From positions 124,001 to 188,000 of the forward strand of contig NZ_FNOK01000012.1 of NCBI RefSeq assembly GCF_900106995.1: a stretch of DNA of 64,000 nt. The letters run 5' to 3'. Under the pieces are notes generated by a model. That model was given only the letters and a program-made list of their open reading frames with translations. It was not told the origin of the DNA and did not search any database. Shown here piece after piece: positions 23,629-59,190 of the stretch. A program made the position numbers and the translations under genes. This DNA is from Saccharopolyspora shandongensis. Lineage in GTDB: Bacteria > Actinomycetota > Actinomycetes > Mycobacteriales > Pseudonocardiaceae. The number at the start of each line of letters is the position of its first letter. Position 1 is the first letter of the stretch.

Positions 23629-23655
23629 CGACAAAGATCGCCAAAGGAAACAGAG

Positions 23656-25640: not shown

Positions 25641-25730
25641 GGTCGATGTCACTGCTCGTGATCGGTTCGTGGCTTTCAGGAGTGGGCGAAAGGCGTTGTG
25701 GGGCTTGGGGATTTTGGCGGCGGCGAAGTA

Positions 25731-25766
25731 TTGGAAACTTACTTCGGATGCCGTATAAAGTTACGC
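25731..25766 (+). promoter_or_regulatory. promoter of the ROK gene, leaderless
   Basis: TTGGAA (25731-25736) and TATAAA (25754-25759) are separated by exactly 17 bp. Transcription would begin about 7 bp after the -10 box, on or next to ATG 25767, so the mRNA would be leaderless. An AACTT/AAGTT inverted pair overlaps the core promoter and could be a ROK operator. Confidence 0.65.
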
Positions 25767-26933: not shown

Positions 26934-26935
26934 CC

Positions 26936-27964
26936 ATGCGCAGAATCCTCTCCATCGTCGCCGGCGTGCTGATGCTCGCCGGCGTGACCGCCGGCTGCGG
27001 CCTGACCCCGGCCGGCGGCGATTCCGGCCTCACCATCTACACCGCCCGCGACAAGGCGCTCGCCGAGAGCGTGGTCAAGGACTTCGAGGCCGCCTATCCC
27101 GAATACCAGGGCAAGGTCCGGATCCTGACGCTCGGCGCGCAGGAGGCGTCCGAGCGGGTGTCCGCCGAGAAGGGCCGCCCGCAGGCCGACATCTGGTGGG
27201 GCGGCTCGCAGCAGCAGTTCACCCAGGCCGCGAACGCCGACCTGCTCGCTCCCGTGCCGGACCAGGTGCGCGACCGCGTTCCGGAGCGCTACCGCGACGC
27301 GCAGGGCCGCTGGGTCGGCGAGATGGTGCTCGCCGAGGTCGTCTTCTACAACGACCAGATGCTCACCCCCGAGCAGGCCCCGAAGGACTGGGACGACCTG
27401 ATCAAGCCCGAGTACCGGGACAAGATCGTCGTCCGCGACGTGGCCGCCTCCGGCACGATGCGCAGCATCTACTCGGCGATGATCACCCGCAACGGCGGCG
27501 AGAACCCCGAGCCGGGCTACGAGTGGCTGCGCAAGCTCGACGCCAACACGAAGGTCTACGCGGCCAACCCGACCGACCTGTACCTGCGCATCCAGCGGCA
27601 GGAGGCGCCGGTCAGCGTGTGGAACCTGCAGGACGTCATGCTGCAGCAGAAGAAGACCGGCGCGCCGTTCAAGCCGGTGGCGACCACCTCGGGCGTCCCG
27701 CAGCTGATCGACGGCATCGCCAAGGTCAAGGGCGGCCCCAACGCCGCCGCTGCCGACAAGTTCCTCGACTTCCTGCTCGGCGTCGAGAAGCAGAAGCAGC
27801 TGGCCGAGGAGTACTTCCAGATCCCGACCGTCGAGCAGGCCGGGCAGCCGAGCTGGCTGGCGCCGCTGAACCTGCACGAGATGCCGGTCGACTGGAGCCT
27901 GGCCGCCGAGAAGGAGACCGAGTGGATCTCCTACTGGAGCGAGCACATCAAGAACAAGAACTAA
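26936..27964 (+). CDS. ABC transporter substrate-binding lipoprotein (Fe3+/small-anion type)
   Basis: The 342-aa protein has a lipoprotein signal peptide ending VTAGC (lipobox, Cys about residue 21). The mature part starts LTIYTARDKALAESVVKDFE, the opening of class F iron(III)/putrescine/aminoethylphosphonate-type binding proteins (TxYT/SxRx). DIWWGGSQQQF and VPQLIDGIAKVKGGPN are further family motifs. GAAGGG precedes the ATG and overlaps the ROK stop codon. It should capture the substrate outside the membrane for the ATPase and fused permease downstream. Because it is linked to sugar/amine catabolic genes, an organic anion or phosphorylated sugar is more likely than iron. Confidence 0.9.
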   Translation: MRRILSIVAGVLMLAGVTAGCGLTPAGGDSGLTIYTARDKALAESVVKDFEAAYPEYQGKVRILTLGAQEASERVSAEKGRPQADIWWGGSQQQFTQAANADLLAPVPDQVRDRVPERYRDAQGRWVGEMVLAEVVFYNDQMLTPEQAPKDWDDLIKPEYRDKIVVRDVAASGTMRSIYSAMITRNGGENPEPGYEWLRKLDANTKVYAANPTDLYLRIQRQEAPVSVWNLQDVMLQQKKTGAPFKPVATTSGVPQLIDGIAKVKGGPNAAAADKFLDFLLGVEKQKQLAEEYFQIPTVEQAGQPSWLAPLNLHEMPVDWSLAAEKETEWISYWSEHIKNKN

Positions 27965-27971
27965 AGATTTT

Positions 27972-28200
27972 CTTGTAAGCAGCTTGCGTTGCGGTGCGGG
28001 TAGCGGAACCTCAGAGGCCTTCTCGCTGTGGGATCCCCGACATCATGAATGACCAATTCACCACGTCGGGGCTGTCCTCGCGAGAAGACCTCTGAGAACC
28101 CGCGGCGGTGCGAGTTGCGGGGGTGGGCTAAGCGGCTGCGCCGCTTCAAAGACAACAACCCCGCGCTGCCACACCTCACACCACGACATTCAAAACAGCC
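27972..28200 (-). repeat. structured repeat family, copy A
   Basis: This copy lies between the lipoprotein and ATPase genes, in inverse orientation to the three other copies in the window. It contains the core outer stem (CTCAGAGG-type arm around 28010-28030 and its complement around 28080-28100), the apical CCCCGAC/GTCGGGG stem and the AAGCGGC/GCCGCTT hairpin (about 28131-28150). It also has the flank ending CATTCAAAACAG shared with copy B. As RNA it would fold into a branched hairpin within the operon transcript. Confidence 0.85.
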
Positions 28201-28285
28201 GCTATAGCACCCCGAAGCACTCACGGGTCGCCTCGGCCGCCGCTTGCACGGAAAGCCATTCCTCGCCCAGCACGGAGAGTTCAGC

Positions 28286-29353
28286 ATGATCCCCGTTCGC
28301 CTCGACCGCGTCAGCAAGAGCTACGGCTCTGCCTCGCCGGTCGTGCACGACATCGACGTGACGATCGAGTCCGGCGAGTTCTTCACGCTCCTGGGCCCTT
28401 CCGGGTGCGGCAAGTCGACCACGCTGCGCATGATCGCCGGGTTCGTCACGCCCACCAGCGGCCGAATCCTGTTCGGCGACCGCGACATCACCGCCACGCC
28501 GCCGAACAAGCGGGGCACCGGCATGGTGTTCCAGAACTACGCCCTGTTCCCGCACTACGACGTCGCGCAGAACGTCGCCTACGGGCTGGTCACGCGCAAG
28601 GTGGCCAAGGGCGAGCGCAACGAGCGGGTGGCCGCCGCGCTCGCCTCGGTGGGGCTCGACGGCTACGCCGACCGGCGGATCGACCAGCTCTCCGGCGGCC
28701 AGCAGCAGCGCGTCGCGCTGGCCCGGGCGCTGGTCATCTCGCCCTCGGTGCTGCTCCTCGACGAGCCGCTGTCCAATTTGGACGCCAAGCTGCGCGAGGA
28801 GACCCGCGTCGAGATCCGCCGCGCGCAGCGGGAAGCCGGGATCACCAGCGTCTACGTCACGCACGACCAGGCCGAGGCGATGGCGATGAGCGACCGGATC
28901 GCCGTGCTCGAATCCGGCAAGCTGCACCAGGTCGGCACCCCGCGCGAGGTCTACCACCAGCCCGCCACCGCCTTCGTGGCCAAGTTCATCGGCGGCAGCA
29001 ACGTCCTCGACGCCGAGGTCGTCGAGAGCTCCGGCGAGCAGGCCGTGGTGGAGCTGGCGGACTCCGGGGCGAAGTTCGCCGCCGGTCGTTCCGCGGAGTT
29101 CGCGGCCGCCGTGGGCGACCGGGTCGCGGTGTCGGTCCGGCCGGAGCACCTGACGATCACCGAGGCCGGCGAGGGCAGCTTCGACGCCGTCGTGCGCGCG
29201 GTGGAGTTCACCGGCGCCACCTGCGAGTACGAGGTCACCGCGGGCGATCTGGAGCTGTCGGTCGCGGTGCCCGACCAGCCCGGCCTGCCGAAGCCCGGCG
29301 ACGTCGTCGGGCTCCGCCCCGAGTCCCGGCACGCCTGGCTGGTGCGGCCATGA
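28286..29353 (+). CDS. ABC transporter ATP-binding protein (PotA/FbpC family)
   Basis: The 355-aa importer ATPase has Walker A GPSGCGKST, Q-loop VFQNYALFPHYDV, signature LSGGQQQRVALARAL, Walker B LLLDEPLSNLD and H-loop VTHDQAEA. A C-terminal OB-type regulatory domain (TOBE) follows with SVRPEHL. GGAGAG lies before ATG 28286. The permease gene overlaps its stop by 4 bp. The long structured repeat before it separates it from the lipoprotein gene and may lower its expression relative to the binding protein. Transport direction is inward. Confidence 0.94.
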   Translation: MIPVRLDRVSKSYGSASPVVHDIDVTIESGEFFTLLGPSGCGKSTTLRMIAGFVTPTSGRILFGDRDITATPPNKRGTGMVFQNYALFPHYDVAQNVAYGLVTRKVAKGERNERVAAALASVGLDGYADRRIDQLSGGQQQRVALARALVISPSVLLLDEPLSNLDAKLREETRVEIRRAQREAGITSVYVTHDQAEAMAMSDRIAVLESGKLHQVGTPREVYHQPATAFVAKFIGGSNVLDAEVVESSGEQAVVELADSGAKFAAGRSAEFAAAVGDRVAVSVRPEHLTITEAGEGSFDAVVRAVEFTGATCEYEVTAGDLELSVAVPDQPGLPKPGDVVGLRPESRHAWLVRP

Positions 29354-31074
29354 GCGCCCCGGCGGTGGCGCCGCGACGCCGCAGGTTGCCCGCTTCCGAC
29401 GGCGATCGCTTCGTCTACGTGCTGGCCATCCCGGTCGTGCTGGTCCTGTTGTTCCTCGTCGTCATCCCGATGGCGACCACCGCGTTCACCTCGGCGGGCG
29501 GGAACGGCCTCGCGGACAACTACGGCAGCCTGTTCGGCGGGTCTTCGGGCCAGGCGCTGCTGCTGTCGTTGGTGAGTTCGCTCGTCTCCGTGTTCTTCTG
29601 CGGCGTGCTCGGCACGCTGCTGGCCGTGCTGCTGCACCGCTTCGACTTCCCCGGCCGCCGGGCGCTTTCGGTGTTCGCCGTGCTGCCGATGGCCTTGCCG
29701 CCGCTGATCGGCGCCGTGTCGTTCGTGCTCCTCTACAGCGAGACCGGGATCGTGCCCCGGACGCTGAACGCCCTGCTCGGCATTTCGCCCGCGAGCACGT
29801 CGGTGAGCGGGCTGGCCGGCGTCGTCCTGGTCCACGCGTTCACCATGTACCCGTACTTCTACCTGTCGGTTTCGGCCGCGCTGGCGGGGCTGGACGGTTC
29901 GCTGGAGGAGGCCGCCACCAACCTCGGCGCGGGTCGCGCGCGGGTGTGGCGGACCGTGCTGCTGCCGATGCTCACCCCGGCGCTGGTTTCCGGCGCGCTG
30001 CTGACGTTCATGATGTCGATGGCGTCGTTCACCGCGCCGCAGCTCTACAACGTGCAGACGCTGACCATGGAGATCGTGTCGGCGCGCACCTCGGGCAACG
30101 CCGCGCTCGCGGCCACCCAGTCGACGGCGCTCTCGGTGGTGTCCATCGCCTTCCTGATGAGCATGCGCTGGTACCAGGGCCGCCGCGTGCACCGCAGCCT
30201 GTCGAAGGGCACGCCGAGCGCGCGCCGCGCGCCGGGCTCCGCCGCCGCGAGGCTCGCCGCCGCGCTGGGCAGCCTGCTGCTCACGGTGGTGCTGCTGGCG
30301 CCGGTGCTGGTGATCGTGCTCGTGTCGTTCTCGGTGGACGGCGCATGGACGACGCAGGTGCTGCCGCCCGAGTACACGTTGGACAACTACCTGCGGATCT
30401 TCGCCGAGCCGCAGAGCCTGCTGCCGATCTCGGTGAGCGTGCAGACCGCACTGCTGGCCACCCTGGCCGCGATCGTCATCGGCGCGGCGGCCTCGTGGGT
30501 CGTCGCCCGCTGGAAGGGCCCGGGGCGCGGCGTGCTGGACGTGATCATCATGCTGCCGTGGGCGCTGCCCGGCACGGTCATCGGCGTGAACCTGGTGACC
30601 GCGTTCAACGAACCCGGCGTCGGCAACCTCGGCCTGACGCTGGTCGGGACGCTGTGGATCCTGCCGGTCGCCTACTTCGTCCGGTTCGTGCCGCTGGTGT
30701 TCCGCTCGACCAGCGCCTCCCTGGAGCAGCTCGACCCGTCGCTGGAGGAGGCGGCGCGCAATCTCGGCGCCGGTCCGCTGCGGGTCCTGCGCACGGTCAC
30801 GCTGCCGCTCGTGCTGCGCGGCGTGCTCGCCGGCGCGTTGCTGGCCTTCGTGGACGGCGTCGGCGAATACGTCGCCTCGGTGGTGATCTACCCGCCCGGC
30901 CTGCCGCCGATGTCGGTGGAGATCTACAACCGCATCTACTCCTCGGAGTTCGGCACGGCGGCCGCCTACGGCGCGCTGCAGATCGTGCTGATCTTGGTCG
31001 TCCTCGCGGTGTCGAACCGCCTCGGCCAGGGCCCGCGCCAGAAGCGCTCACCGGCGGTGATCCCCGCCGCCTAG
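29350..31074 (+). CDS. fused ABC permease (FbpB-like, two permease domains)
   Basis: The 574-aa protein holds two inner-membrane permease modules in one chain. Each has an EAA loop for ATPase contact: SLEEAATNLGAGRARVWRTV (about residue 180) and SLEEAARNLGAGPLRVLRTV (about residue 465). Twelve hydrophobic segments are visible. This fused form is characteristic of iron(III), 2-aminoethylphosphonate and related importers. It couples to the ATPase gene by ATGA. The following lyase gene starts after a 43-nt gap. Confidence 0.92.
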   Translation: MSAPAVAPRRRRLPASDGDRFVYVLAIPVVLVLLFLVVIPMATTAFTSAGGNGLADNYGSLFGGSSGQALLLSLVSSLVSVFFCGVLGTLLAVLLHRFDFPGRRALSVFAVLPMALPPLIGAVSFVLLYSETGIVPRTLNALLGISPASTSVSGLAGVVLVHAFTMYPYFYLSVSAALAGLDGSLEEAATNLGAGRARVWRTVLLPMLTPALVSGALLTFMMSMASFTAPQLYNVQTLTMEIVSARTSGNAALAATQSTALSVVSIAFLMSMRWYQGRRVHRSLSKGTPSARRAPGSAAARLAAALGSLLLTVVLLAPVLVIVLVSFSVDGAWTTQVLPPEYTLDNYLRIFAEPQSLLPISVSVQTALLATLAAIVIGAAASWVVARWKGPGRGVLDVIIMLPWALPGTVIGVNLVTAFNEPGVGNLGLTLVGTLWILPVAYFVRFVPLVFRSTSASLEQLDPSLEEAARNLGAGPLRVLRTVTLPLVLRGVLAGALLAFVDGVGEYVASVVIYPPGLPPMSVEIYNRIYSSEFGTAAAYGALQIVLILVVLAVSNRLGQGPRQKRSPAVIPAA

Positions 31075-31117
31075 CGCGCCACGTCCACGACCATCCACAG
31101 TGGAAAGAGCTGTTCAC

Positions 31118-32590
31118 ATGACCCAGCCTCCGGAACTGTCCAACTACTGGCAGAACCACCTCCGGGTGGCCTTCGAGAAGTCCGCGCCGCAGCTGTACCG
31201 GCCGATGCTGCACGCCAGCCTCGCGCACGTGGTGATGCTCGCCGAACAGGGCCTGCTGCCCGCCGCCCGGGCCCGGCAGCTGCTCGGCGGGCTGCGCGAG
31301 CTGCTCGCGGCCGACGACGACCGGTTCGCCTTCGACGGCAGCGTCGAGGACGTCTACTACCTCGTCGAGCAGCGGCTCGCCGCGGCCGCCGGCATCCGGC
31401 CGTCCGAGCTGGACGTGCAGCTGGCCCGCTCCCGCAACGACCTCGACGCCGGCGTGTTCCGCATGGTGCTGCGGGAGAACGTGCTCGACCAGGCCCGTCA
31501 GGCCTGCGCCGCCGCCGAGGCCGCCGCGGCCCAGGCGGACCGCCATGCCGACGTCCTGATCACCGGGTTCACCCACCGCAGGCCCGCCCAGCCGACCACG
31601 CTCGGGCACGTGCTGGTCGGCTACGCCGAGGCGCTGCTCAGCCAGGCCGAGGAGCTGCTGTCGGTCTACGACGAGCTCGACGTCAACCCGCTCGGTTCGT
31701 GCGCGTTCGCCGGCACCGACCTGCCGATCGCCCCGCCGCGGCTCGCCGAGCTGCTCGGCTTCCGGGAGACCTTCACCTCCAGCTACGAGGCGGTGGCCGG
31801 GGCCGAGCACCTGATGCGCACCGCCGCGGTGCAGGCCCGCATCCTGGCCACCGGCGCCCGGATGGCCCGCACGATGCTGGACTGGATGACGTTCGGCTGG
31901 ATCGCCACCCCGGACTCGTACTGCCAGGGCTCCAGCATCATGCCGCAGAAGAAGAACCCGGTGGTGCTGGAGCACATGTGCTCGATGGCCGGAGCGGCGG
32001 CGGCCGACCTGGCCGCGACGATGAACAACGTCGGCGCCGCCTGGTACGAGGACTCCAACAACGCCACCACGGACGTCCAGGAGCACCTCTGGCGGGCCGG
32101 TGACCGTTCCGTGCGGTTCCTTACGCTGATGCGCGGCCTGCTGGAGGAGCTGAGCCCGCAGAACCCGCCTTCGCCGGAGGAGGTGGTGGCCACCGGCGCG
32201 ACTACCACGGCGATCGCCGAAGCGCTGGCGGGCGCTGGAATCCCCTGGCGGGGCGCGCATTCCGTGGTCGGCGCGCTCGTCCGGCAGGCGCCGCCGGCGG
32301 AGTGGACCGCGGCCGTCGTCGCCGCCGCGATCGCCGAGGCCGGACTGGGCACTGTGGACGATTCGGTGGTGGAGGCGGCACTCGCCGCAGGGCTTCGCCC
32401 GCAGCAGGTGCTCGACCGTCCCCAGGACGGCGGCCCCGGCGCCGCGGCGGTGCGCCGCACGGCGGAGCTCGCGGTGGCCCGCGCCCGGGTGCTGGCCAGT
32501 GCGTTCGCCGACCGCAGGGCCACCCTGGGTGAGGCCGAGCGCAAGCTCGACGCGGCCGTGGACGCCGTGCTGGCCGGAGGCCGCGGGTGA
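31118..32590 (+). CDS. argininosuccinate-lyase-like (fumarase superfamily) enzyme
   Basis: The 490-aa protein has the superfamily signature GSSIMPQKKNP (about residues 271-281), containing the catalytic serine loop. It also has conserved region 1 (DVQLARSRNDLDAGVFRMVL) and region 2 (TGFTHRRPAQPTTLGH; argininosuccinate lyase has T-x-x-Q-A-Q-P-x-T). Enzymes of this fold eliminate fumarate from C-N or C-O bonds. It is not in an arginine operon but in a transport/catabolic cluster with a PfkB kinase, amidohydrolase and SIS enzyme, so it probably splits an N-succinyl-type or related bond in the imported compound. Substrate is inferred only. Confidence 0.85.
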   Translation: MTQPPELSNYWQNHLRVAFEKSAPQLYRPMLHASLAHVVMLAEQGLLPAARARQLLGGLRELLAADDDRFAFDGSVEDVYYLVEQRLAAAAGIRPSELDVQLARSRNDLDAGVFRMVLRENVLDQARQACAAAEAAAAQADRHADVLITGFTHRRPAQPTTLGHVLVGYAEALLSQAEELLSVYDELDVNPLGSCAFAGTDLPIAPPRLAELLGFRETFTSSYEAVAGAEHLMRTAAVQARILATGARMARTMLDWMTFGWIATPDSYCQGSSIMPQKKNPVVLEHMCSMAGAAAADLAATMNNVGAAWYEDSNNATTDVQEHLWRAGDRSVRFLTLMRGLLEELSPQNPPSPEEVVATGATTTAIAEALAGAGIPWRGAHSVVGALVRQAPPAEWTAAVVAAAIAEAGLGTVDDSVVEAALAAGLRPQQVLDRPQDGGPGAAAVRRTAELAVARARVLASAFADRRATLGEAERKLDAAVDAVLAGGRG

Positions 32591-33525
32591 GCCATCCAGC
32601 TCCCGACGACCGAATCACCGTTGTTGGCAACGTGAACCTCGACGTCCTGGTCGCCGGGGCGGCGGAGCTCCCGCCGCCGGGCACCGAGCAGATCGTGCCG
32701 TCGATCGTGCTGCGGCCCGGCGGTTCGGCTGCGAACACGGCGATCGTGCTGGCCCGGCTCGGCAGGCCGACGGTGCTGGCCGGGCGGGTCGGTGACGACG
32801 GGACCGCGCGGCTGCTCGCCGACCAGCTGGACATCCCCGGCCTGCGGTTGGAGCTGGTCCGGGTGCCCGGCGAGCACACCGGCGTGACCGTCGCCGCTGA
32901 GGCACCGGGCCGGGATCGCGCGTTCCTCTCGGCGCTCGGGGCGATGGCCGATCTGGACGTGTCGGTCGTGCCCACGGCGGCGCTGGCGGCCCGGTTCGTG
33001 TTGCTGTCCGGCTATTTCCTGCTCCCGGCACTGCAGGGTGAGCCCGCCCGCGACCTGCTGGCGCAGGCGCGGCAGGCCGGGGCGCGCACCGCGCTGGACA
33101 CCGGTTGGGATCCTGCGGGCTGGGACGCCGGAACCCGCGCGGACGTCCTGCGGTTGCTGCGCGAGGTCGACGTGTTCCTGCCCAACGACGACGAGCTGCA
33201 CGCACTGCACGGCGATCGGTGCGACGACGAGGTCGCGGCCCGCAGCATCGCCGATGCGACCGGGGCGACCGTCGTGGTCAAGCGCGGCGCACGCGGCGCC
33301 CTCGTCGCCCGGCCAGGCCAGCCGCACAGCACCCATCCGGCGCCCGAGGTGCAGGTCCGGGACTCCACCGGCGCCGGCGACGCCTTCAACGCCGGACTGC
33401 TGCACCGGCTCGCCGACGGCGCGTCCAGCGACGACGCCGCCGACTACGCCGTCCGGGTCGCGGCGACCGTGATCAGCAGGCCCTCGCACGACCGGGCCTT
33501 CGCACTGGAGGACGTGGACCGATGA
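32587..33525 (+). CDS. PfkB-family carbohydrate kinase
   Basis: The 312-aa kinase has PfkB signature 1 near residue 40 (PGGSAANTAIVLARLG) and signature 2 at residues 259-267 (DSTGAGDAF) with the catalytic Asp. GTG 32587 overlaps the lyase stop (GTGA). Family members phosphorylate sugars and nucleosides; FrlD-type members act on fructosamines. The SIS enzyme downstream makes an amino sugar or Amadori compound a reasonable substrate guess. The next gene overlaps its stop by 4 bp. Confidence 0.92.
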   Translation: MSHPAPDDRITVVGNVNLDVLVAGAAELPPPGTEQIVPSIVLRPGGSAANTAIVLARLGRPTVLAGRVGDDGTARLLADQLDIPGLRLELVRVPGEHTGVTVAAEAPGRDRAFLSALGAMADLDVSVVPTAALAARFVLLSGYFLLPALQGEPARDLLAQARQAGARTALDTGWDPAGWDAGTRADVLRLLREVDVFLPNDDELHALHGDRCDDEVAARSIADATGATVVVKRGARGALVARPGQPHSTHPAPEVQVRDSTGAGDAFNAGLLHRLADGASSDDAADYAVRVAATVISRPSHDRAFALEDVDR

Positions 33526-34505
33526 CCGAAGCGGCGCGCGGCATCCCGATCGTCGACTTCCACCTGCACTTCCGGATCGAGCACGACGAGGCGACCAGGG
33601 ACCTCTCCGGCGGCCAGTTCGGCTGCGCCGACCACGACGAGGCGGCCCAGCGCCGCCGCGCCGAGCAGGTGGCGGAGCAGTCCCGGCGCTGGCGACGGGC
33701 CTGGGACTTCCCCGATCCGCAGCCGGATCCCGAGCGGACCTGGCAGACCGAAGCGGACATGTGGCTGGCCGAGCTCGACCGCTACGAGATCGCCCACGCG
33801 GCGTTCGTCACCGGCTGCGGCGACGAGCGGGTCGCCGAGCTCGTCGCCCGCGCACCGGAGCGGTTCTCCGGGATGGCGAACCTGCGCGACCTCACCGCCC
33901 CGGACGCCGCCGAGCGCCTGGCACGAGCGATCGACGAGTTCGGCCTGCGCGGGCTGAAGCTGTTCGCCCCGCTGCTGCCGCACCGCATCGACGACCCGGC
34001 CGCCGACCCGGTGTGGCGGGTGGCCGCCGACCGCGGCATCCCCGTGCTGATCCACTTCGGACACTGCGGCTCCAGCGGGGGAGTGGCGCACAACGCGCAC
34101 ATCGAACCCGCCTGGCTGGAGCCGGTCGCCAAGCGGTTCCCGGGAATCCCGTTCGTGGTCCCGCACTTCGGCGTGCAGCACGTGCAGCAGGTCCTGTTCC
34201 TGTGCTGGGCCTGCCCGAACGTGCTGGTGGACACCTCGGGCTCGAACCAGTGGGTGCGCTGGATGCCCTACAAGCTGACGCTGGAAGACCTGTTCCGGCG
34301 CTGCTACGAAACGATCGGCCCGGAGCGCATCGTCTTCGGCAGCGACTCCTCCTGGTTCCCGCGCGGCTACTGCCACCGGTACCTGGCCGACCAGCTGCGG
34401 GTGTGCCACGAGATGGGCATGCCGGAGGCGGACCTGCGCGCGATCTTCGGCGGGAACGCCGCACGAATGCTGGGGATTCCCGGCCTCGGGAGGGGAACGG
34501 AATGA
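33522..34505 (+). CDS. amidohydrolase (amidohydrolase 2 family)
   Basis: The 327-aa TIM-barrel hydrolase has the metal motif HLH (H14, H16) in IVDFHLHF, further likely ligands in LIHFGHCG and VPHFGVQH, and the catalytic Asp in IVFGSDSSWFP. The family includes aminocarboxymuconate decarboxylase-like and lactone-hydrolysing enzymes. It is coupled by 4-bp overlaps to both the kinase and the SIS gene. It probably performs a hydrolysis or decarboxylation step on an intermediate of the imported substrate; which one cannot be read. Confidence 0.88.
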   Translation: MTEAARGIPIVDFHLHFRIEHDEATRDLSGGQFGCADHDEAAQRRRAEQVAEQSRRWRRAWDFPDPQPDPERTWQTEADMWLAELDRYEIAHAAFVTGCGDERVAELVARAPERFSGMANLRDLTAPDAAERLARAIDEFGLRGLKLFAPLLPHRIDDPAADPVWRVAADRGIPVLIHFGHCGSSGGVAHNAHIEPAWLEPVAKRFPGIPFVVPHFGVQHVQQVLFLCWACPNVLVDTSGSNQWVRWMPYKLTLEDLFRRCYETIGPERIVFGSDSSWFPRGYCHRYLADQLRVCHEMGMPEADLRAIFGGNAARMLGIPGLGRGTE

Positions 34506-35515
34506 CGACGGAAGCGGGCACCTGGATGGCCGCGGAGATCGCCGAACAACCGCGGGTGCTGGCCGACCTGGCCCGGCGCGCGGGGGAGTTCCGGGAGGTG
34601 GCGGAGCGGCTCGAACGCAGCCGCCCGCGGTTCGTGCTGTTCGCCGCGCGCGGCTCCAGCGACAACGCGGCGCTGTACGGCAAGTACCTGGTGGAGGTGC
34701 TGCTCGGACTGCCCGCCGGGCTGGTGTCGCCGTCGACCACCACGCTGTACCGGGCGGAGCCCGACCTCACCGACGTCGCGCTGATCGCGGTCAGCCAGAG
34801 CGGCGGCTCACCGGACCTCGTGGAGGTGACCGAGCAGGCGGCCAAGCGCGGGGCCTTCACGGTGGCGGTGACGAACACGCCGGACTCGCCCCTCGGCGCG
34901 GCGGCGCAGCACACGCTGGACATCGGAGCGGGCGTGGAGCGGGCGGTCGCGGCGACCAAGACCTACACCGCGACGCTGCTCGCCCTGCACCTGCTGCTGG
35001 CCGGTGGCGGTGCGGCCGTCGACCGCATCGGCGAGCTCGCGCAGTCCTGCCTGGACGAGAACGCGGACCGGATCGGCGCGGTGGCGCAACGACTGCGCTT
35101 CGCCGACCAGGTCGTCACCACGGCGCGCGGGTATTCGCTTGCCACCGCGCAGGAAGCGGCGCTGAAGCTGGCGGAGACCAGCTACCTGGTCACCCGCGCC
35201 TACAGCGGCGCGGACCTGCTGCACGGGCCGATCGCGGCGGTGGGCCAGGAGACGGCGGTGCTGGCGGTGACCGGAACCGGCCCGGGCGGCGCGGCGATGG
35301 CGGAGCCGCTGGCCCGCCTCGCGCAGCAAGGCGCGGAGGTCCTGCGGGTCGGCGCGGGCGACGACGCCCAGCTGCGGATCCCGGACCTGCCGGAAGAGCT
35401 GTCGCCGGTCGTGGAGGCCCTGCCGCTCCAGCGCCTCGCGTGGGCGCTGGCCACCGCGCGCGGCTACGACCCGGACCGCCCGGCCGGGCTGCGCAAGGTC
35501 ACCGAAACCCGCTGA
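34502..35515 (+). CDS. SIS-domain isomerase/deaminase (NagB-II/FrlB-like)
   Basis: The 337-aa protein has two SIS domains, as in the isomerase half of glucosamine-6-phosphate synthase. It opens with M-x-x-EI-x-EQP (residues 9-17), seen in GlmS and NagB-II. Sugar-phosphate loops are GSSDNA (residues 51-56) and SQSGGSPD (about residue 98). ERAVAATKTYTA and ALKLAETSYL are typical of the C-terminal SIS domain. No glutaminase domain is present, so it should release ammonia or an amine from a 6-phosphorylated aminosugar or Amadori compound. It ends the cluster. Confidence 0.9.
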   Translation: MTTEAGTWMAAEIAEQPRVLADLARRAGEFREVAERLERSRPRFVLFAARGSSDNAALYGKYLVEVLLGLPAGLVSPSTTTLYRAEPDLTDVALIAVSQSGGSPDLVEVTEQAAKRGAFTVAVTNTPDSPLGAAAQHTLDIGAGVERAVAATKTYTATLLALHLLLAGGGAAVDRIGELAQSCLDENADRIGAVAQRLRFADQVVTTARGYSLATAQEAALKLAETSYLVTRAYSGADLLHGPIAAVGQETAVLAVTGTGPGGAAMAEPLARLAQQGAEVLRVGAGDDAQLRIPDLPEELSPVVEALPLQRLAWALATARGYDPDRPAGLRKVTETR

Positions 35516-35526
35516 TGGCACCGGGT

Positions 35527-35646
35527 TCAGCCCAGGCCGTCGTACTCCTCCGGAGGCACGACCAGCTCGGGGTGGCGGTGCGGGTAGCCCTCGCCGTGCA
35601 GGTACTGCACGTACTCGTTCTCGCTCCGCATCTCGTCGTCCGCCAC
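35527..35646 (-). CDS. possible small acidic protein (39 aa)
   Basis: From GTG 35646 the frame reads VADDEMRSENEYVQYLHGEG and continues YPHRHPELVVPPEEYDGLG. The high Tyr, His and Glu content and regular pattern look like a genuine conserved small protein rather than noise. The ribosome site is weak. It faces the SIS gene convergently, 11 bp from its stop. Confidence 0.4.
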   Translation of the reverse strand: MADDEMRSENEYVQYLHGEGYPHRHPELVVPPEEYDGLG

Positions 35647-35725
35647 CGGGGCACCCTGAGCGGTCGTTCGCCGGAAAGGCTCGGAGCAAGCTCGTCCTTG
35701 CAGGTGCCCGGTGCCTGACACAGGT

Positions 35726-35747
35726 GGCGATCTCGCGCGAAATCGCC
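35726..35747. repeat. 22-bp palindromic repeat, copy 1
   Basis: GGCGATCTCGCGCGAAATCGCC is a near-perfect palindrome with one mismatch (C/A). A second copy lies 21 bp further on and a third at 41001. The shared core is GGCG-A/T-TTTCGCGCGAAA-T/A-CGCC. Confidence 0.8.
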
Positions 35748-35767
35748 ATCCGCTCCTCACATGGAGC

Positions 35768-35789
35768 GGCGATTTCGCGCGAAATCGTC
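35768..35789. repeat. 22-bp palindromic repeat, copy 2
   Basis: GGCGATTTCGCGCGAAATCGTC differs from a perfect palindrome only at one outer position. With copy 1 it forms a tandem pair of hairpins in the gap between the small acidic gene and the cupin remnant. Confidence 0.8.
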
Positions 35790-35866
35790 CTCCTGCGTTT
35801 CAGGCGATCGCGTCGACGACCTCGGCGGCAGGGCTTCAGCGTCAGCGCTGGTGAATGCGGTGCTGG

Positions 35867-36087
35867 TCAGCGGGTGTGGGCGGCGGCGTATTGCTCGTCG
35901 GTGACGGGTTCGAGCCAGGTGGTGCCGTCTCCGTCTTCGGTCCCTCGATCATCGCGATGTGGCTCATGCAGGTGCTGTTGGTGCCGCCGTGTCAGTTCTC
36001 CTCTCCCGGCGGGGTCCACACCGCGTCGCCAGCCCTCATGCGGATGACGTCGCCATTGCGGACCGGCACGACGCCAAGACCGTCCTA
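35867..36087 (-). pseudogene. cupin-domain protein remnant
   Basis: Reading leftward from about 36087, NGDVIRMRAGDAVWTPPGEEN is followed by a TGA (35992-35994) where the family has Trp (EHWHG), then HGGTNSTCMSHIAMIEG. A frame change then leads to EDGDGTTWLEPVTDEQYAAA. This is the metal-binding beta-barrel of a small quercetinase-like cupin, broken by a nonsense mutation and a frameshift. The metal motif HGG is preserved, so decay looks recent. It sits just downstream of a frameshifted esterase gene. Confidence 0.72.
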
Positions 36088-37261
36088 AGTGGTCGTGGTG
36101 GGGACGCAGGCGATCGCGTTGAAGGCCCTGAAGATCGGCGCCGCCATGAAGTCGCCTTCTGTCCGGACCTTCCGGTAGGCGCCGAACTCGGGGCCTAGTG
36201 CCGCGATCGTCAGCGGTGCGTCGCCGGTGAAGGCCGTTTCTATGCAGTCTGGCTCCAGCGGCGGCAACGGAACTTCCCGTGTTTCCAAGCCGTCCGGGGT
36301 CAGCGCGCCCTCCACGGCTCGGCCGCCGATGCTCGTCGCGGCGATCGCCACGTAGTCGTCGCCCAGCGCCTCGGCCAGGTGGTAGCCCGCCGGGAACAGG
36401 CCGAAGGCGCCTTCGTGCTCGACCGGGGTCCGCCGGAGGTGCGTGTTGTGCATGGCGAAGACGATCCGGCGTTCCGCGGCCAGCACGTCCAGGGCGGTTT
36501 CGGCCGCGTAGCGGTCGAGTTCGGCCGTGCCGACAGACAGGCCCGCGCCGCTGAGATCGCGCTGGAAGTGGTCCAGGTGCCAGGCGCTGCGCAGGTGCCG
36601 CGTCGCCTCGGCGTGCTCGCGACCGCGGCCCTCGCAGCGGTGATGGGCGGCCATGCACTCCATGCGCGCCAGCAACCGGCTCAGCGCCGCCGTCGCGGCG
36701 TCGCGGTCCGCGACGCCAACGTCCGGCGTAGAGCTGGAAGGCCCGCAGTGAGTCGGCGTCGAAACGCTCCGCCACCTCGATGGCCTTCGTGAGCAGCGGC
36801 AACGCGTCCGGGTCGGCTCGGTGGAGAAACCGTTCGAACTCGGTGAGCGCCGGGAGCGGCGAGCCGGTGGAGACCGGCAGGGCGCCGACGAAGCGCAGCG
36901 GCCGCTCGGCGTGCTCGTTGTGCCGGCGCATCAAGGTCAGGTGGGCGTGCATCTCCGGGTGATCGCCCAGACCGAGCGCGGTGCCCGCGGCGCTGATCGT
37001 CGCGACGTCGCCCGGCCCGCCCCGCACCCAGTCGTCGATGACGTGCGCCTCGGTGAACGGGGCCTCGAAGACGTAGGCGGTGAATCCGCAGCGCTCGGCG
37101 AGGAAGCGCAGCAACCGGTGCCGCAGGCGGTAGAACTCCGCGGCGTGGTGGGTGCTTTCGCCGATCCCCACAACGCGAGCATCGCCGATCACGTCCCGCA
37201 GCGGCTCAAGGTCGTCCAGCGGTGCCTCCGGATCCAACGAGGCCGACACCGCCCGCGTCAC
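36085..37261 (-). pseudogene. erythromycin-esterase-like protein, frameshifted
   Basis: The N-terminal part from GTG 37261 (VTRAVSASLDPEAPLDDLEP, then VVGIGESTHHAAEFYRLRHRLLRFLAERCGFTA) contains the GE(S/N)-x-H catalytic motif of the EreA/Ere-like family. The frame breaks near 36705-36735. A second frame then supplies the rest (LARMECMAAHHRCEGRG..., FAMHNTHLRR with a second conserved His, and a C-terminus ending at 36085). Together they make about 390 aa, the normal length, so a single-nucleotide indel is the only defect. It may be a pseudogene or an assembly error. The start overlaps the stop of the DUF1772 gene (GTGA). Confidence 0.78.
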
Positions 37262-37737
37262 CGGCGGGCTCCGGTCAGGCCAGCGGTGATGATCACCAGG
37301 ACGAAGGCGGCGAGCGCCGTGGCCACCCGGATGTCGTTGAACGTGCCCCACACCGCGAGCCGGTCCAGGTGGTCGGGGGCGAGCTCACCGGCGGCCCAGC
37401 GCTTCATCTCCTGGTTGATCGGCACGTTGCCGAACCTGGTCACCAGGAACGAGGCCACCGCGAAGGTGGTGGCGGCGATCGCCGGGATGCGCGCCCGGCC
37501 GCGGGTGCTGATGGCCAGCCAGCCGGTGGTCGCCACCGCCGCCGCCATCAGGAGCTGCATGACGACGCCGTTGACCTTCATCAACTCGGTGCGGAACGCG
37601 AGGTGCACGTCCAGCGGCACGGCCGAGAACGTCGGCGTCACGTTGGCCCAGCCGTAGAAGAACGCCCCGGCGAGCACCCCGGTCGCCAGCAGCGCGAAGC
37701 CCGCGGCGAGCCGCGCGGTGATCGATTTCGCAGACAT
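37258..37737 (-). CDS. DUF1772-type integral membrane protein
   Basis: The 159-aa protein has four hydrophobic segments (LAAGFALLATGVLAGAFFYGW, LMAAAVATTGWLAIS, IAATTFAVASFLV, VATALAAFVLVIITAG). Between segments 3 and 4 it has RFGNVPINQEMKRW, the conserved N-x-P-x-N motif of DUF1772 (anthrone-oxygenase-like) proteins. The start lies back to back with the AfsR-type gene, about 110 bp away. It is coupled to the esterase-like gene downstream. Some relatives act in polyketide oxidation, but most have no known function. Confidence 0.85.
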   Translation of the reverse strand: MSAKSITARLAAGFALLATGVLAGAFFYGWANVTPTFSAVPLDVHLAFRTELMKVNGVVMQLLMAAAVATTGWLAISTRGRARIPAIAATTFAVASFLVTRFGNVPINQEMKRWAAGELAPDHLDRLAVWGTFNDIRVATALAAFVLVIITAGLTGARR

Positions 37738-37845
37738 GGGGCGAGGTTGCGGTGCGGCGCTCGCAAATCGCACACAGCCCGCTCTCGGGCGGCTTGTCCG
37801 CATTCTCGCTTTCTCCGTGGCCCGAACCGCTGGCAGGGTGGGCGC

Positions 37846-40800
37846 ATGCGGATAGGAGTCCTCGGGCCGCTGGAGATCAGCGCCGGTGGTGAGAAGGTCG
37901 TCGTGGGCGGCGTTCGACTGCGCACGCTGCTTGGTCGGCTCGCGCTGGACTCCGGGCACACCGTGTCGGTGGAGGCGCTGACCGAGGCCCTGTGGCCCGG
38001 TGCCGACGGGCCCATCGACCGCGTGCACGCGCTGCACTCGCTGGTGACGAGGCTGCGGCGGCTCCTGCCGGACGCCGTGCTGCGCGAGTCCAGCGGATAC
38101 CGGCTGAGCGCGGAATCGGTGGACTGCAGGCAATTCGAGGAACTCGCCCGCGACGGCCGCCAAGCCCTGCACGACGGGCACATCGAGCAGGCGGGCCGGT
38201 TGCTGCGCGAAGCGTTGGCGCTGTGGCGCGGAGTCGCGTTCGAGGACGTCCCGGACGCGCCGTTCGCCGTGGCGGCGCGGGTGCGGTTGGCCGAGCTGCG
38301 GCTCGCCGCGATCGAGGACCGGGCGCAGGTCGACCTGCAGACCGGGGCCGAATCCCCGCAACTGGTAACCGCAGGCCCTGACCGCGGCGCATCCCGACCG
38401 CGAGCGCGCCCGGGCGCTGCTGCTGCGCGCGCTCCAGTCGACCGGGCGAACGGCCGAAGCGCTGAGCAGCTACGAGGAATTCCGCGTGGCGCTGGCGGAA
38501 AAGCTCGGCGCCGACCCGTCTCCGGAGCTGCGCGAAGCGCATCTGGCCGTGCTCCGCGAGGAAACGACCCGGCTGCGCGGCAGCAACCTGCGCGCCGCGC
38601 TGACGAGCTTCGTCGGCCGCGATGCCGAGCTGGCCCTGGTCGATCGGAGGCTGGCCGAACACCGGCTGGTCACGCTGACCGGCCCGGGAGGTGTGGGCAA
38701 GACGCGGCTGGCGACGACGGCGGCCTCCGCCCTGGCCGGTGAGCAGGCGGTCTGGTTCGCGGAACTGGCATCGGTTTCCGACCCGGCGGACGTTCCGCAG
38801 GCGGTTCTCGACGCTCTCGGGCACCGGACGGCGCCGCACGGGCGGGACGCGCTGGATCGGCTGACCGACGCGCTGTCGCCGGCCCCGGCCGTGCTGGTGC
38901 TGGACAACTGCGAGCACCACCTGGACGCGGTCGCGTCCCTCGCGGACGGGCTGCTCGGCAGCTGCCCGGACCTGCGGCTGCTCGCCACTAGCCGGGAACC
39001 GCTGGGCCTGCTCGGCGAAGCGCTGGTGCCGGTGCCGCCGCTGGGCCTCGCGTCGACGGGCGCCGATGCCGCAGGCGTGCTGGTCAGCCCCGCAGGGCGG
39101 CTGTTCGTGGACCGGGCGAGGGCGGCGAACCCGGATTTCGCCGTGACGGCGGGGAACGCGGGCGTGGTCGCCGAGATCTGCCGGCGGCTGGACGGCCTGC
39201 CGCTGGCCATCGAACTCGCCGGCGCGCGGATCCGGTCGTTGCCGGTGGATCGCGTCCTCGCGCTGCTCGACGACCGGTTCCAGCTGCTCAACCAGGGAAA
39301 CCGGGCCGCGCTGCCCCGGCACCGCACGTTGCGCGCGGTGGTCGACTGGAGCTGGGACCTGCTCGACGAGGCGGAACGGTCGGTCGCCGCTGCGCTGGCG
39401 GTGTTCGGCGGTTCGATGACCGCGGCGGCCGTCGACCGCGTCTGCCCCGGCGACCTGCCCGCGGCGGTGGTCCTGTCCGCGCTGGTGGACAAGTCGCTGC
39501 TGGCCGTCGATTCGGTCCACGATGGACGGTCGATCCGATACCGGATGCCGGACACGATCCGCGAATACGGCCTGGAGAAGCTGGCCGACGCCGACCGGGT
39601 CCGGGCCGCCCACGCGCGCTACTTCCGCGAGATCGCCGAGCAGGCCGCGCCGCACCTGCGCGGACCGGAACAGCTGGAATGGGCGCCCCGGCTCGCCGCG
39701 GACCGCGACAACTTCCGCGTCGCGCTGCGCTTCGCCTGCGGTGCGGGTGACGCCGACACGGCGATCCGGCTCGCGACGGCGCTCGCCTACTACCTGACCA
39801 TGCACGGTGATCACGCCGAGGCGGCCCGGCTCCTGCGGATGGCGCTGGAGCTCCCGGCCGGCGCCACCGAGGCGAACCGCGTCCCGGCCACGGCCGCCTA
39901 CCTGCTGAACGCGGTGCTCTCCGGCGAAGTCGTTCCCGAGGCGATCGGCAGATGCCGGGAATCCGCCGGCAGCGAGCACCCTTCCGGAGCGGTGGTCGAG
40001 CCGCTCATCGCGCTGCTCACCGGGGATTTCGACGCGGCCCTGGCGGCGATCGACCGGCGGCAGCCGCACCCGGCGCCGCTGGCGCGGGCGATGCTGTCGT
40101 TCGTGCGGGCGCTGGTGAACGGCAACCGCGGTGCCCTGCGGCAGACCTGCGACGACCTCGCCGCGGCCGCCGAGCGGTTCCGGGCGCTCGGCGAGCGGTG
40201 GGGGATGGTCAGCTCGCTGACCTACCTCGGGATCACGCGGACGATGCTCGGCGATCCCGACGCGGCGATCGCGGCCCTGCGGTGCTCGATGGCCCCGGCC
40301 CGCGAGCTCGGCGACGACCACCACCAGCGGATCTGGCTGGCGACCGCGTACGCGCACGCCGGGGACGCCGAACGCGCGGGAGCCGAACTGCGCGGCGTGA
40401 TCGGGTCCGAACCGGCAGCCCAGCACCTCGCCCTCGCCCGGCTGAAGCTCGGCGATCTGGCACGCGGCGACGGCGACCTGCGGGCCGCGGACGAGCAGTA
40501 CGACCTCGCGTGGTGGGCGGTCGGGCCGCGCCGCGACGTCGACCCGGTCTTCCGATCGCTGCACGGCATGGCCCGGGCGCGGCTCGCCTTGGCCCGCGGC
40601 GCCTGCGAGGAGGCCCGGCGCGACCTGCGATCGGCGCTCGCCGCGGCGTCGAAGACGTCGGACCTGGTCCTGGTGGCGGCGATCGGCAGCGCGATCGCCG
40701 AACTACCGGCCAGAACAGGGCAATTCGCGGCGGCAGCGGAACTCCTCGGAGCGGCCGGAGCGCTGCGAGGCTCGCCGGATGCGCTGAACCCGGACATCGC

Positions 40801-41236: not shown

Positions 41237-42418
41237 ATGGCCTATGAGCGCGCAGATCCCCGAGCCGGTGATCCAGGGCGGCCGGGACCCGGACAGCCCC
41301 CCGAGCGGCCGGGGCCGCCACCCGGCGCACCGCAGGGCGGACCGCCGCCGGGACGGCCTCCGCAGCCGCCGGGCCAGCCGCCGCAAGGCCAGATGCCACC
41401 CGGCCAGGTGCCGCCGGGGCAACCCGGGCCGCCCCGGCAGGGGCCGGGTCAGCCGATGCCACCCCAGCAGGGCCCGCCGCCGGGCCAGCCGGGACCGCAC
41501 CAGGGCCCGCCCGGTCAGCCGGGGGGCGTGCAGGGCCCGCCAGGAGGTCAGCCTGGACCGCCGCCCGGCCAGCAGCAGGGTCCGCCAGGAGGCCAGCCGA
41601 CGCAGGTGGTGCCGCAAGGCCCGCCACCAGGAGGTCAGCCGTCACAGGCAGGCCAGCCGACGCAGGTCGTGCCGCAGGGCCCGCCCCCGGGCGGTCAGCC
41701 GATGTCGCCTGGCGGTCCGCAGGGCGCTGCGCCGTCCGGGACGGTGCCGATGGGCCAGTCGACGCCGGTCCAGCAGCACCCGGTCCAGCAGCCGCCCGCC
41801 AACCAGTACCCGGCGACGCGCATCCAGCAGCGCATGGAGCCCGCGGAACCCGAGCCGTACCAGGATCGCTATCGCGACGACCAGTACGACGACCGCTACC
41901 GCGACCCCTACCAGGACCGCTACCGCGACGACCAGTACGACGACCGCTACCGCGACGACCCGTACCGGGATCACTACCGCGACGACCCGTACCGGGATCA
42001 CTACCGCGACGACCCGTACCGGGATCACCACCGCGACGACCAGTACCGGGAGCCGGAGCGCGACCGCTACCGGGAGTCCCGCGCGGACCGGCAGCGGGAC
42101 CGGGACCACGACGACCGCCGCGACCGCGGGCCGCGCTTCCAGGGGCCCAGCGCGGACACGATCGGCCGCGTGATCCAGGTGTTCACGGCGCTGATCGCGC
42201 TGGTCTTCGTGCTGCACATCATCTTCTCGGTCGTCGGCGCCAACCAGGACAACGACTTCGTCGCGTTCACCTACGGCACGGCGAAGTTCTTCGTGTTCGG
42301 CCTCGGCGACGTGTTCACCCCGGACGACGCGACGATCGGCTTGATCCTGAACTACGGCCTCGCGGCGCTGATCTACCTGTTCGCGGGCCGGATCATCGCC
42401 CGCGCGCTGAAGCGCTGA
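41237..42418 (+). CDS. proline/glutamine-rich membrane protein with YRDD repeats
   Basis: The 393-aa protein has three parts. Residues 1-205 are low-complexity Pro/Gly/Gln (PPGQ and PGGQP motifs). Residues about 210-290 hold tandem repeats built on YRDDPYRDH and YRDDQYDD, encoded by near-identical 27-bp units around 41953-42035. Residues 305-393 contain two hydrophobic segments (VIQVFTALIALVFVLHIIFSVVG and LILNYGLAALIYLFAG), the second followed by a basic end. The N-terminal region would be a long disordered cytoplasmic tail. Similar Pro-rich membrane proteins (YggT-like C-terminus) occur in actinomycetes; function unknown. The ribosome site is poor. Confidence 0.78.
   Translation: MAYERADPRAGDPGRPGPGQPPERPGPPPGAPQGGPPPGRPPQPPGQPPQGQMPPGQVPPGQPGPPRQGPGQPMPPQQGPPPGQPGPHQGPPGQPGGVQGPPGGQPGPPPGQQQGPPGGQPTQVVPQGPPPGGQPSQAGQPTQVVPQGPPPGGQPMSPGGPQGAAPSGTVPMGQSTPVQQHPVQQPPANQYPATRIQQRMEPAEPEPYQDRYRDDQYDDRYRDPYQDRYRDDQYDDRYRDDPYRDHYRDDPYRDHYRDDPYRDHHRDDQYREPERDRYRESRADRQRDRDHDDRRDRGPRFQGPSADTIGRVIQVFTALIALVFVLHIIFSVVGANQDNDFVAFTYGTAKFFVFGLGDVFTPDDATIGLILNYGLAALIYLFAGRIIARALKR
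41870..42060 (+). repeat. in-gene tandem repeats encoding YRDD units
   Basis: Units such as GACGACCCGTACCGGGATCA occur three times in tandem with a 27-bp period, preceded by related units with CAG instead of CCG. The array is in frame and maintains the reading frame. It is a likely site of length variation. Confidence 0.85.
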
Positions 42419-42480
42419 GCGTCGTGAGCGGCTTTGGATCGCCGTCGCAGTCCAAAGCGCTCCCGACCACGCTAGAGAGA

Positions 42481-42706
42481 GCCTGTTTTGGATGTCGTGG
42501 TGTTGAGGTGCGGTAGGGCGGGTTGTTGTCTTTGAAGCGGCGCAGCCGCTTAGCCCGCCCTCGCAGCTTGCACCGCCGCGGGTTCTCAGGGGTCTTCTCG
42601 CGAGGACAGCCCCGACGTGGTGAATTGGCATTCATGATGTCGGGGATCCCACAGCGAGAAGGCACCTGAGGTTCCGCCACCCGCACCGCCACGCAGAGCA
42701 AGTTTG
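42481..42706 (+). repeat. structured repeat family, copy B
   Basis: The longest, forward-oriented copy begins CCTGTTTTGGATGTCGTGG and includes AAGCGGCGCAGCCGCTTAGC (42535-42554). It then has the outer stem arm with GCGGGTTCTCAGGGG, the apical stem CCCCGAC...GTCGGGG and the returning arm to GGTTCCGCC. It fills the gap between the YRDD protein and the CDF gene, which converge. Confidence 0.88.
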
Positions 42707-42716
42707 GAAACAGGTC

Positions 42717-43694
42717 CTAGAGCGGGTGGCCGTAGCGGGCGAGGACCCGGGCGCGCAGCTCCGGGTCCTCACGCGGCACCGGTTCCAGGAACACCTCGTC
42801 CAGTTCCGCGAATTCGGCGCGCAGCATCGAGTCGATGCGCACCACGGCGCGTTCCAGCTCGGTGGAGTCGAGCGTCGCGGCGAAGTCCAGGCGGGCGCAG
42901 AACAGCACCCGGTCGGTCCCGGTGTTCATGGACAGCACGTCCACGACGAAGTCCACCTCGGGCTGCTCCGCGAGCCTGCTCCGCACGGCCGCGAGCAGCC
43001 GCCGGTCGGCCTGCTGGCCGATCAGCAGCCCCAGGTTGGTGCGGGCCATGGTGTAGGCGACCGCGGCCAGCAGCGCGCCGATCGCGAGCGAGGCGAGCCC
43101 GTCCCAGGCGCTCGACCCGGTGAGCTGGTGCAGCCCGAGCCCGGCGAACGCGAGCAGCAGCCCGGCCAGCGCGGCGCTGTCCTCCAGCAGCACCGTCTTG
43201 ACCGTCGGATCGTCGGAAATCCGCAGGTGGTGGAGGATCGTGTCGCCGCTCTCGGCGGCCTCGGCCCGCACCTGCCGCATCGCGCGCAGCCAGGACACGC
43301 CCTCCAGGACGAACGCGAGCGCGAGGACGACGTATCCGACCAGGGGCTGGGTCTGCTCCTCCGGCGGGCCGAGCAGGGTGCGGAAGCCCTCGATGAAGGC
43401 GAAGACGGCGCCGGAGACGAAGATGCTCATCGCGGCGATCAGCGACCAGAAGTACCGCTCCTTGCCGTAGCCGAACGGATGGCGGGCGTCGGCGGGCTTG
43501 CCGGAGCGCCGCAGCGCGGTCAGCAGGAAAACCTCGGTGCACGTGTCGGCCACCGAGTGCGCGGCCTCGGAGAGCATCGCGGCCGATCCGGTGATCACGC
43601 CGGCGAACGCCTTCATGACCGCGATGGCCAGGTTGATGCCCAGCGCCACCAGCACCGTGAGCGTGCTCTCGCCGCCCTTGTCCGCGTCCACCAT
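42717..43694 (-). CDS. cation diffusion facilitator transporter
   Basis: The 325-aa protein has six hydrophobic segments and the CDF metal-site residues. Helix 2 carries SEAAHSVADTCTE (H-x-x-x-D), preceded by the N-terminal INLAIAVMKAFAGVITGSAAMLSE. RHPFGYGKERYFW is the family loop. Helix 5 reads LLEDSAALAGLLLAF, with ED instead of the usual H-x-x-x-D, pointing to selectivity other than classical Zn. The cytoplasmic C-terminal domain (VDFVVDVLSMNTGTDRVLFCARLDF) dimerises. GGGAG lies 6 nt before the start. It exports divalent cations such as Zn2+, Mn2+ or Fe2+ by proton antiport. Confidence 0.92.
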   Translation of the reverse strand: MVDADKGGESTLTVLVALGINLAIAVMKAFAGVITGSAAMLSEAAHSVADTCTEVFLLTALRRSGKPADARHPFGYGKERYFWSLIAAMSIFVSGAVFAFIEGFRTLLGPPEEQTQPLVGYVVLALAFVLEGVSWLRAMRQVRAEAAESGDTILHHLRISDDPTVKTVLLEDSAALAGLLLAFAGLGLHQLTGSSAWDGLASLAIGALLAAVAYTMARTNLGLLIGQQADRRLLAAVRSRLAEQPEVDFVVDVLSMNTGTDRVLFCARLDFAATLDSTELERAVVRIDSMLRAEFAELDEVFLEPVPREDPELRARVLARYGHPL

Positions 43695-48647: not shown

Positions 48648-48825
48648 GCAAGCGGCGCAGCCGCTTAGCCCACGCACGAAACTTGCACCGCCGCGGGTTC
48701 TCAGAGGCCTTCTCGCGAGGACAGCCCCGCCACGACGTATTGGTCATACGTGTGCCGGGGATCCCGGAGTCGAGAAGGCCTCTGAGGTTCCGCTACTCGC
48801 ACCGCTACGGAAAACGAGCCTGGAA
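48648..48825 (+). repeat. structured repeat family, copy C
   Basis: This copy shows the family's structure best. After AAGCGGCGCAGCCGCTTAGC comes CTCAGAGGCCTTCTCG at 48700-48715, which pairs perfectly over 16 bp with CGAGAAGGCCTCTGAG at 48771-48786. The outer flanks (GCACCGCCGCGGGTT and GGTTCCGCTACTCGCACCGC) continue the stem imperfectly. The apex holds short stems such as CGTAT/ATACG. It lies between convergent genes. Confidence 0.9.

Positions 48826-57052: not shown

Positions 57053-59190
<2,138 letters not shown>

Follow-up and report, generated by a model that had tools for sequence, protein, structure and literature searches.

A multi-copy family of covarying, MITE-like elements in Saccharopolyspora that probably targets terminator-like palindromes at gene ends

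Results

Four copies of a structured repeat

The window (the whole 64,000-nucleotide stretch of Saccharopolyspora shandongensis DNA analysed here) contains four copies of a large structured repeat, A to D, which lie where a sequence-only reading had placed them and align with one another across the entire core. Their features are as follows.

27965–28201, minus strand: copy A, a type I element whose left end adjoins CTATAG, next to one of the arms of palindrome A
42472–42477, no strand: left direct repeat of copy B, CTAGAG; apparent target duplication
42478–42716, plus strand: copy B, a type I element of 239 bp from one direct repeat to the other; core covariance-model score 147.5 bits
42535–42551, plus strand: AAGCGGC hairpin of copy B (AAGCGGCGCAGCCGCTT); from sequence reading and folding
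42570–42689, plus strand: core hairpin of copy B; from folding and covariance-model match
42717–42722, no strand: right direct repeat of copy B, CTAGAG; contains the stop codon of the minus-strand gene 42717–43694
48648–48825, plus strand: copy C, left module of type III; about 70 bp further left there is another AAGCGGC-type hairpin
48700–48786, plus strand: outer stem of copy C, a perfect 16 bp (48700–48715 pairs with 48771–48786), with the apical stem that it encloses
58997–59190, plus strand: copy D; orthologous copy in the relative G017, none in G005 or G006

Copies B, C and D lie between convergent genes, the arrangement that had been proposed for three of the four, and copy A lies in a tandem gap (genes called by codon bias). 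The core of copy A is 27 nt from the stop of the upstream gene and its right end reaches the stop codon of gene 26936–27964, a boundary that is approximate because the right terminal repeat is degenerate. For copy B the location held but the bounds did not: the flanking CTAGAG repeats give 42478–42716 rather than 42481–42706. This direct repeat is up to 6 bp long, and shorter if GAG/CTC is assigned to the terminal repeat. The gene upstream of copy B carries a coding tandem repeat of its own (41824–42063), with a spacing of mostly 27 and sub-steps of 12/15.

The element is built of terminal inverted repeats around an AAGCGGC hairpin and a long hairpin that is bulged and has a conserved loop of TTGGNCA type. 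A 120-nt core hairpin is common to all four copies (alignment over the whole core), and the parts they have in common are the AAGCGGC hairpin, the long hairpin, an asymmetric bulge and, at the apex, a stem capped by a TTGG(T)CA loop. The outer arms of the long hairpin read CTCAGNGG..CTTCTCG and its complement, with copy D deviating mid-arm. Both the perfect 16-bp stem described for copy C and the extended (left) end described for A and B are seen in the alignment. Folded singly as RNA, the three copies B, C and D gave minimum-free-energy z-scores of -6.8, -4.1 and -2.5, respectively. A search of the window against Rfam at gathering score returned tRNA only, and copy B searched at E up to 10 returned only matches far below gathering, so we rejected a known Rfam family. 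A phage or plasmid origin was also rejected, the core region of copy B (171 bases) having no match in phage or plasmid collections.

Covariation of the core

Covariation was scored in an alignment from 76 chosen sources in the S. shandongensis genome and its relatives (matches up to E 2e-7), which gave 92 rows, 91 of them distinct. Paired cells made up 93.9%, versus 81.2% in shuffled alignments, and 25 of the 33 pairs had changed on both sides (13.9 in shuffles), including all 12 pairs of the main outer helix. Double-change cells numbered 340, compared with 84.8 in shuffles (sd 12.3) and at most 57 in slid structures; relatedness among copies inflates such counts, an inflation that the slid controls share, and the reference structure is favoured because it was taken from one of the copies. 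Stems without compensatory changes, which would have spoken against the sequence-only reading, are thus not what we found: the stems covary as it had claimed. A compensatory change can even be followed inside one orthologous copy. At site D, S. shandongensis has CTCAGACT..AGTCTGAG and G017 has CTCAGACG..CGTCTGAG, with flanking genes that are 97–99% identical. Likewise, right-end hairpins of the forms GAGCCTGGAAACAGGCTC and GAGGTTGGAAAAACCTC differ by a compensated change while their GGAAA loop is constant.

Arms are rearranged in 26 of the 92 copies (the 5' arm in 20, the 3' arm in 11). With these 26 rows dropped, 65 distinct rows were kept for counts of conservation and pair type. Mean conservation was 0.88 in unpaired and 0.84 in paired columns, some stem columns falling to about 0.44 (figures without a significance test). 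G-U cells outnumbered A-C cells by 87 to 34, or 50 to 34 when one mostly U-G pair is left out; counted by pairs the figures are 16 versus 6. This excess leans towards RNA pairing over DNA pairing or arm correction, with the caveat that the model which selected the rows may itself favour G-U.

Could the covariation be a mutational artefact, left by template switching between the arms of imperfect palindromes with no selection on structure? Arm-to-arm correction is known for quasipalindromes, and in some copies the outer arms complement each other almost perfectly despite differing between copies. Correction alone, however, does not explain why conservation in loops and bulges equals or exceeds that in stems, and the G-U excess also speaks against it, to the extent that it is independent of the model's choice of rows. 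We consider such an artefact unlikely.

Copy number and distribution

To count copies we used a covariance model of the core built from 30 of them. It gave at least 150 core matches in the S. shandongensis genome; a first search had given at least 42. On three contigs (C49, C43 and C51; 825,797 bases), chosen with the match list in view, the model finds 35 copies in the sense direction (E up to 3e-8), a count from which the antisense matches that a near-palindromic core also gives were excluded; scaled by contig this density corresponds to 600, 287 and 453 copies per genome, and to 430 when pooled. A fixed-position sample (bases 20,001–40,000 of 20 contigs, 400 kb in all) contained 13 copies with E no higher than 5e-10, plus a single weak match, for 330–355 per genome. 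The 10.15-Mb genome therefore has about 330–430 copies, in keeping with the hundreds that had been predicted from four in 64 kb.

The family extends well beyond this species. Stretches of 400 kb from two relatives held 17 copies (G013) and 8 copies (G003), densities that may be high as the stretches were chosen with the match lists in view, and whole-genome searches, from 150 scored places, gave at least 148 and at least 107 matches, respectively. The core was present in 25 of 61 genomes, namely that of S. shandongensis, 20 of 21 others of the genus and 4 of 15 from other genera of the family, so that copies are not limited to the window, as they might have been had the earlier claim been wrong. 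It was absent from all 24 genomes taken from elsewhere in the order, in searches whose filters lose weak matches. Among named species, an exact 35-base piece of the core was found only in Saccharopolyspora elongata (26 stretches), in a search that possibly left out near records.

Position relative to genes

Genes around 60 copies in three genomes (S. shandongensis, G013 and G003) were called with a purpose-written caller based on codon bias. None of the 60 lies inside a called gene; 30 are in convergent, 26 in tandem and 4 in divergent gaps (18/16/1 in S. shandongensis, 5/9/3 in G013 and 7/1/0 in G003). Convergent gaps make up about 20%, 17% and 15% of intergenic length in the three genomes, counting gaps of 150 bp or more. 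In the S. shandongensis sample, convergent gaps are enriched (18 of 35 copies versus 20% of gap length, p=3e-5) and divergent gaps depleted (1 of 35 versus 25%, p=5e-4); the skew is weaker in G013, where 3 of 17 copies are divergent. The copies had been described as always at gene 3' ends, and 56 of the 60 do adjoin at least one; the word "always" fails for the other 4.

In tandem gaps the orientation is unbiased (right end toward the upstream stop in 14 copies, opposite in 12), so no single sense RNA is indicated. The right end is frequently only a few bases away from a stop codon, an observation that depends on how long the left arm is taken to be. As a targeting rule we rejected it: the effect is strong with a 60-bp left arm and weak with a 125-bp one (p=0.02), for which the left-right comparison of stop abutment gives 13 of 30.

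Empty sites and target palindromes

Precise empty sites with short direct repeats were found at both of the two loci examined. At C43:211779 a type II copy of 240 bp has CATTGA on each flank, and G017, G005 and G006 all have an empty site at this place. The G017 site is an inverted repeat, CCGCAATTTCAATGGAAATC..GATTTCCATTGAAATTGCGG, and the element is inserted inside one arm of this repeat, which has a CATTGA-type palindrome (palindrome B). The type I copy at C127:152731 is absent from G017, where a whole palindrome A (CTCGTGAGCGTTTTGATCCGCTATGGCGATCCAAAGTACTCACGAG) stands in its place; the element sits at the centre of that palindrome (GTGAGNNCTTTGG..GCTATAGC..CCAAAGNNCTCAC) with a direct repeat of CTAT to CTATAG. 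Since the targets are palindromic, duplication lengths from 3 to 6 bp are indistinguishable. These two loci, one of each type, set the element length at about 240 bp, and together with the CTAGAG repeats of copy B they provide the target-site duplications and empty sites that a mobile element was expected to leave.

Both target palindromes also occur free of the element in gene-end gaps. In the 826-kb sample palindrome A (GTGAG..CTATAG..CTCAC) has 5 places, of which 3 are convergent, 2 tandem and 0 divergent. Palindrome B (CAGTTTCAATTGAAACTG) has 14 on the same three contigs of S. shandongensis, 4 of them near an element; 6 are in convergent and 7 in tandem gaps, one is called inside a gene and none is divergent. 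The outer arms of palindrome B are variable yet often mutually complementary. The two palindromes are likely terminator-like repeat families of their own.

Complementarity between the flanks of inserted copies points in the same direction. For type II, 16 of 23 loci score 8 or more, versus 2.3% in shuffles, and 53% still do so when flanks are swapped between copies, because the palindrome is shared. Among 14 distinct type I loci (two of which were first counted on both strands), 5 score 8 or more and 4 of these 15 or more, compared with 8.5% at 8 or more in shuffles; a marked flank palindrome is lacking at the remaining 9.

At sites A–D the relatives have a gap without the element, or other palindromes, truncated copies or copies in opposite orientation, and whole intergenic regions differ between sister genomes. 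This last observation, together with the convergent enrichment and the covariation, would fit bidirectional terminators or 3' stabilisers that the host maintains and that spread mainly by recombination and gene conversion. We nevertheless judge that explanation improbable, given the precise empty sites, which lie inside palindromes and show short direct repeats, and the opposite-orientation copies found in the same gap of relatives (G003 at site B; G005 and G017 at site C).

Ends and partner insertion sequences

Left ends among the 35 sampled copies are of type I in 4, type II in 11 and the type III module in 3, and the other 17 have a hairpin only, a right end only, or neither. Evidence for transposition is limited to copies with recognised ends, with type I or II left repeats in 15 of 35 and a type III module in 3 more. 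A right-end hairpin with a GGAAA loop occurs in many copies. That one core is found with different ends (types I, II and III) suggests that it is a module of its own.

In S. shandongensis, the type I left end TATAGAGGCTGTTTTGGA also stands ahead of an IS5-family transposase gene (PF13340), at loci L143, L145 and L186; as this IS is cut at contig ends, the comparison covers the left terminal repeat. L145 adjoins the left arm of palindrome A, while L143 and L186 do not. A homologous 1039-bp IS of G013, whose protein belongs to the IS5 family (NCBIfam), lies at the centre of palindrome A in all three copies examined, among 6 matches listed. At about 240 bp the elements are too short for a 300-residue IS5-type transposase, which the related ISs carry. 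For type I, then, the transposase is no longer wholly unknown, as the sequence-only reading had it, and the mobility it proposed is supported by the two empty sites. For the commoner type II, a search with the left end (up to 3 mismatches) gave 36 places, none of them a partner. Core matches account for 17 of these, and the other 19 (18 loci) each proved to be an element; L129 is truncated, and L125 and L132 are interrupted by an IS630-type element. Beside the IS5-family element at L143 there is also a second miniature element (L143:1022–1277) with the same TATAGAGGCTGTTT ends and different inner palindromes.

The core is itself a target for insertion. Of four ends of an IS630-type element found in a family search, three (L148, L149 and L158; not L147) lie in the apical loop, at CATACA/TA; the other 8 matches of that search have no element adjoining. 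Two further such ends, L125 (C133 end) and L132 (C94 end), had been fetched for their type II left ends. We rejected the IS630-type element as the autonomous partner of type II, as it has its own ends and one of them is elsewhere (L147), and take it to be a nested insertion; these insertions point to the hairpin loop as a favoured target. In G003 a related IS lies inside the core stem at CTGAG or CTCAG (L162 and L175, among 10 matches listed), and in G033 one copy (L163) has a left flank resembling the same IS5-family core-stem insertion.

REP-like repeats moved by a RAYT-type (Y1) transposase would also be palindromic, extragenic and present in hundreds of copies. REPs are much shorter than these elements of about 240 bp, and the presence of terminal inverted repeats, short direct repeats and a match to the IS5 family points away from them, which makes such an origin very improbable.

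A far more serious alternative is that the copies are purely selfish MITEs without host function, whose 3'-end bias reflects purifying selection against insertions into genes and promoters and whose core structure is needed for transposition as a DNA hairpin or cruciform. Empty sites and terminal repeats agree with this, as do the unbiased orientation in tandem gaps and the identity of the type I left repeat with that of an IS5-family IS, and the IS630-type element in the apical loop would be expected if the loop extrudes or is a preferred target. Yet the same core occurs with ends of types I, II and III and so is not bound to a single transposase, the 3'-end bias is also seen in target palindromes that lack an element, and an excess of G-U pairs over A-C mismatches is not favoured by DNA pairing alone. 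We regard the purely selfish account as quite possible, if not the one we would choose.

Discussion

The reading we prefer, and think probable, is that the family consists of non-autonomous, structured MITE-like elements that target terminator-like palindromes and whose core persists as a predicted end-of-transcript structure. Like MITEs they are short, with terminal inverted repeats, target-site duplications and empty sites. The earlier proposal had offered either selection on an RNA or cruciform structure or a MITE-like element; covariation argues for the first and the empty sites for the second, so that both parts are supported.

A mechanism can be outlined on this basis. An IS5-family transposase may move type I copies in trans, as the common left terminal repeat suggests, and elements with IS5-type ends would integrate in terminator-like palindromes. 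Insertion would split the palindrome and at the same time bring in the element's own hairpin, leaving the gene end structured. Because a replacement end structure is supplied, splitting a terminator would cost the host little. The core would then be kept as an RNA read from either side, serving as a replacement terminator or as a 3'-end stabiliser. The 3'-end bias may thus be due largely to the targeting of terminator-like palindromes, a source that was absent from the earlier proposal and that would be simpler than selection alone.

The core may act as a bidirectional terminator. A scan of 42400–42800, the copy B region and the sole region scanned, found no T-tract terminator; this, the rearranged arms in 26 of 92 copies and the unbiased orientation weigh against this, and any host role would have to work in both directions. 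More tentatively, we put forward the possibility that different transposable ends carry the core as a portable, bidirectional end-of-transcript module, that its insertion is self-neutralising, and that nested insertions into palindromes build modular, covarying 3'-end structures across the genus. If true, this would explain how hundreds of transposon-derived hairpins can sit at gene ends without obvious damage. Several hundred comparable insertions would also form a natural set for testing the effect of mobile DNA on actinobacterial transcript ends, and mobility should be examined before covarying 3' structures present in many copies are called functional RNAs.

Comparison with known systems

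The titles and abstract openings surveyed, with most subscription papers outside the coverage, gave no description of this element family. Bacterial MITEs such as MITEAba12 resemble it in being short, with terminal inverted repeats, short target duplications and many copies, and in having a candidate autonomous IS with one terminal repeat in common. Unlike them, the present family has a long covarying internal hairpin common to different ends, reaches hundreds of copies and lies inside terminator-like palindromes. REP/BIME and REPIN sequences are likewise extragenic, palindromic and of high copy number; what sets our elements apart is their terminal repeats and empty sites. Intrinsic terminators of high-GC bacteria are stable GC-rich hairpins between convergent genes, and our elements too are stable GC-rich hairpins in convergent gaps, but copy B has no T-tract and the family is mobile, multi-copy and conserved in its loops.

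Two systems come closer in their choice of target. Tobes and Pareja (2006, PMC1525189) describe autonomous ISs inserted in REP palindromes, which, like our elements, prefer repeated extragenic palindromes; our family differs in being mostly non-autonomous and in residing in palindromes A and B. IS1272 (PMC5678879) also takes inverted-repeat structures as targets, replacing the inverted repeat and making no target duplication, whereas insertion of the elements described here keeps palindrome arms on both sides, together with a short direct repeat.
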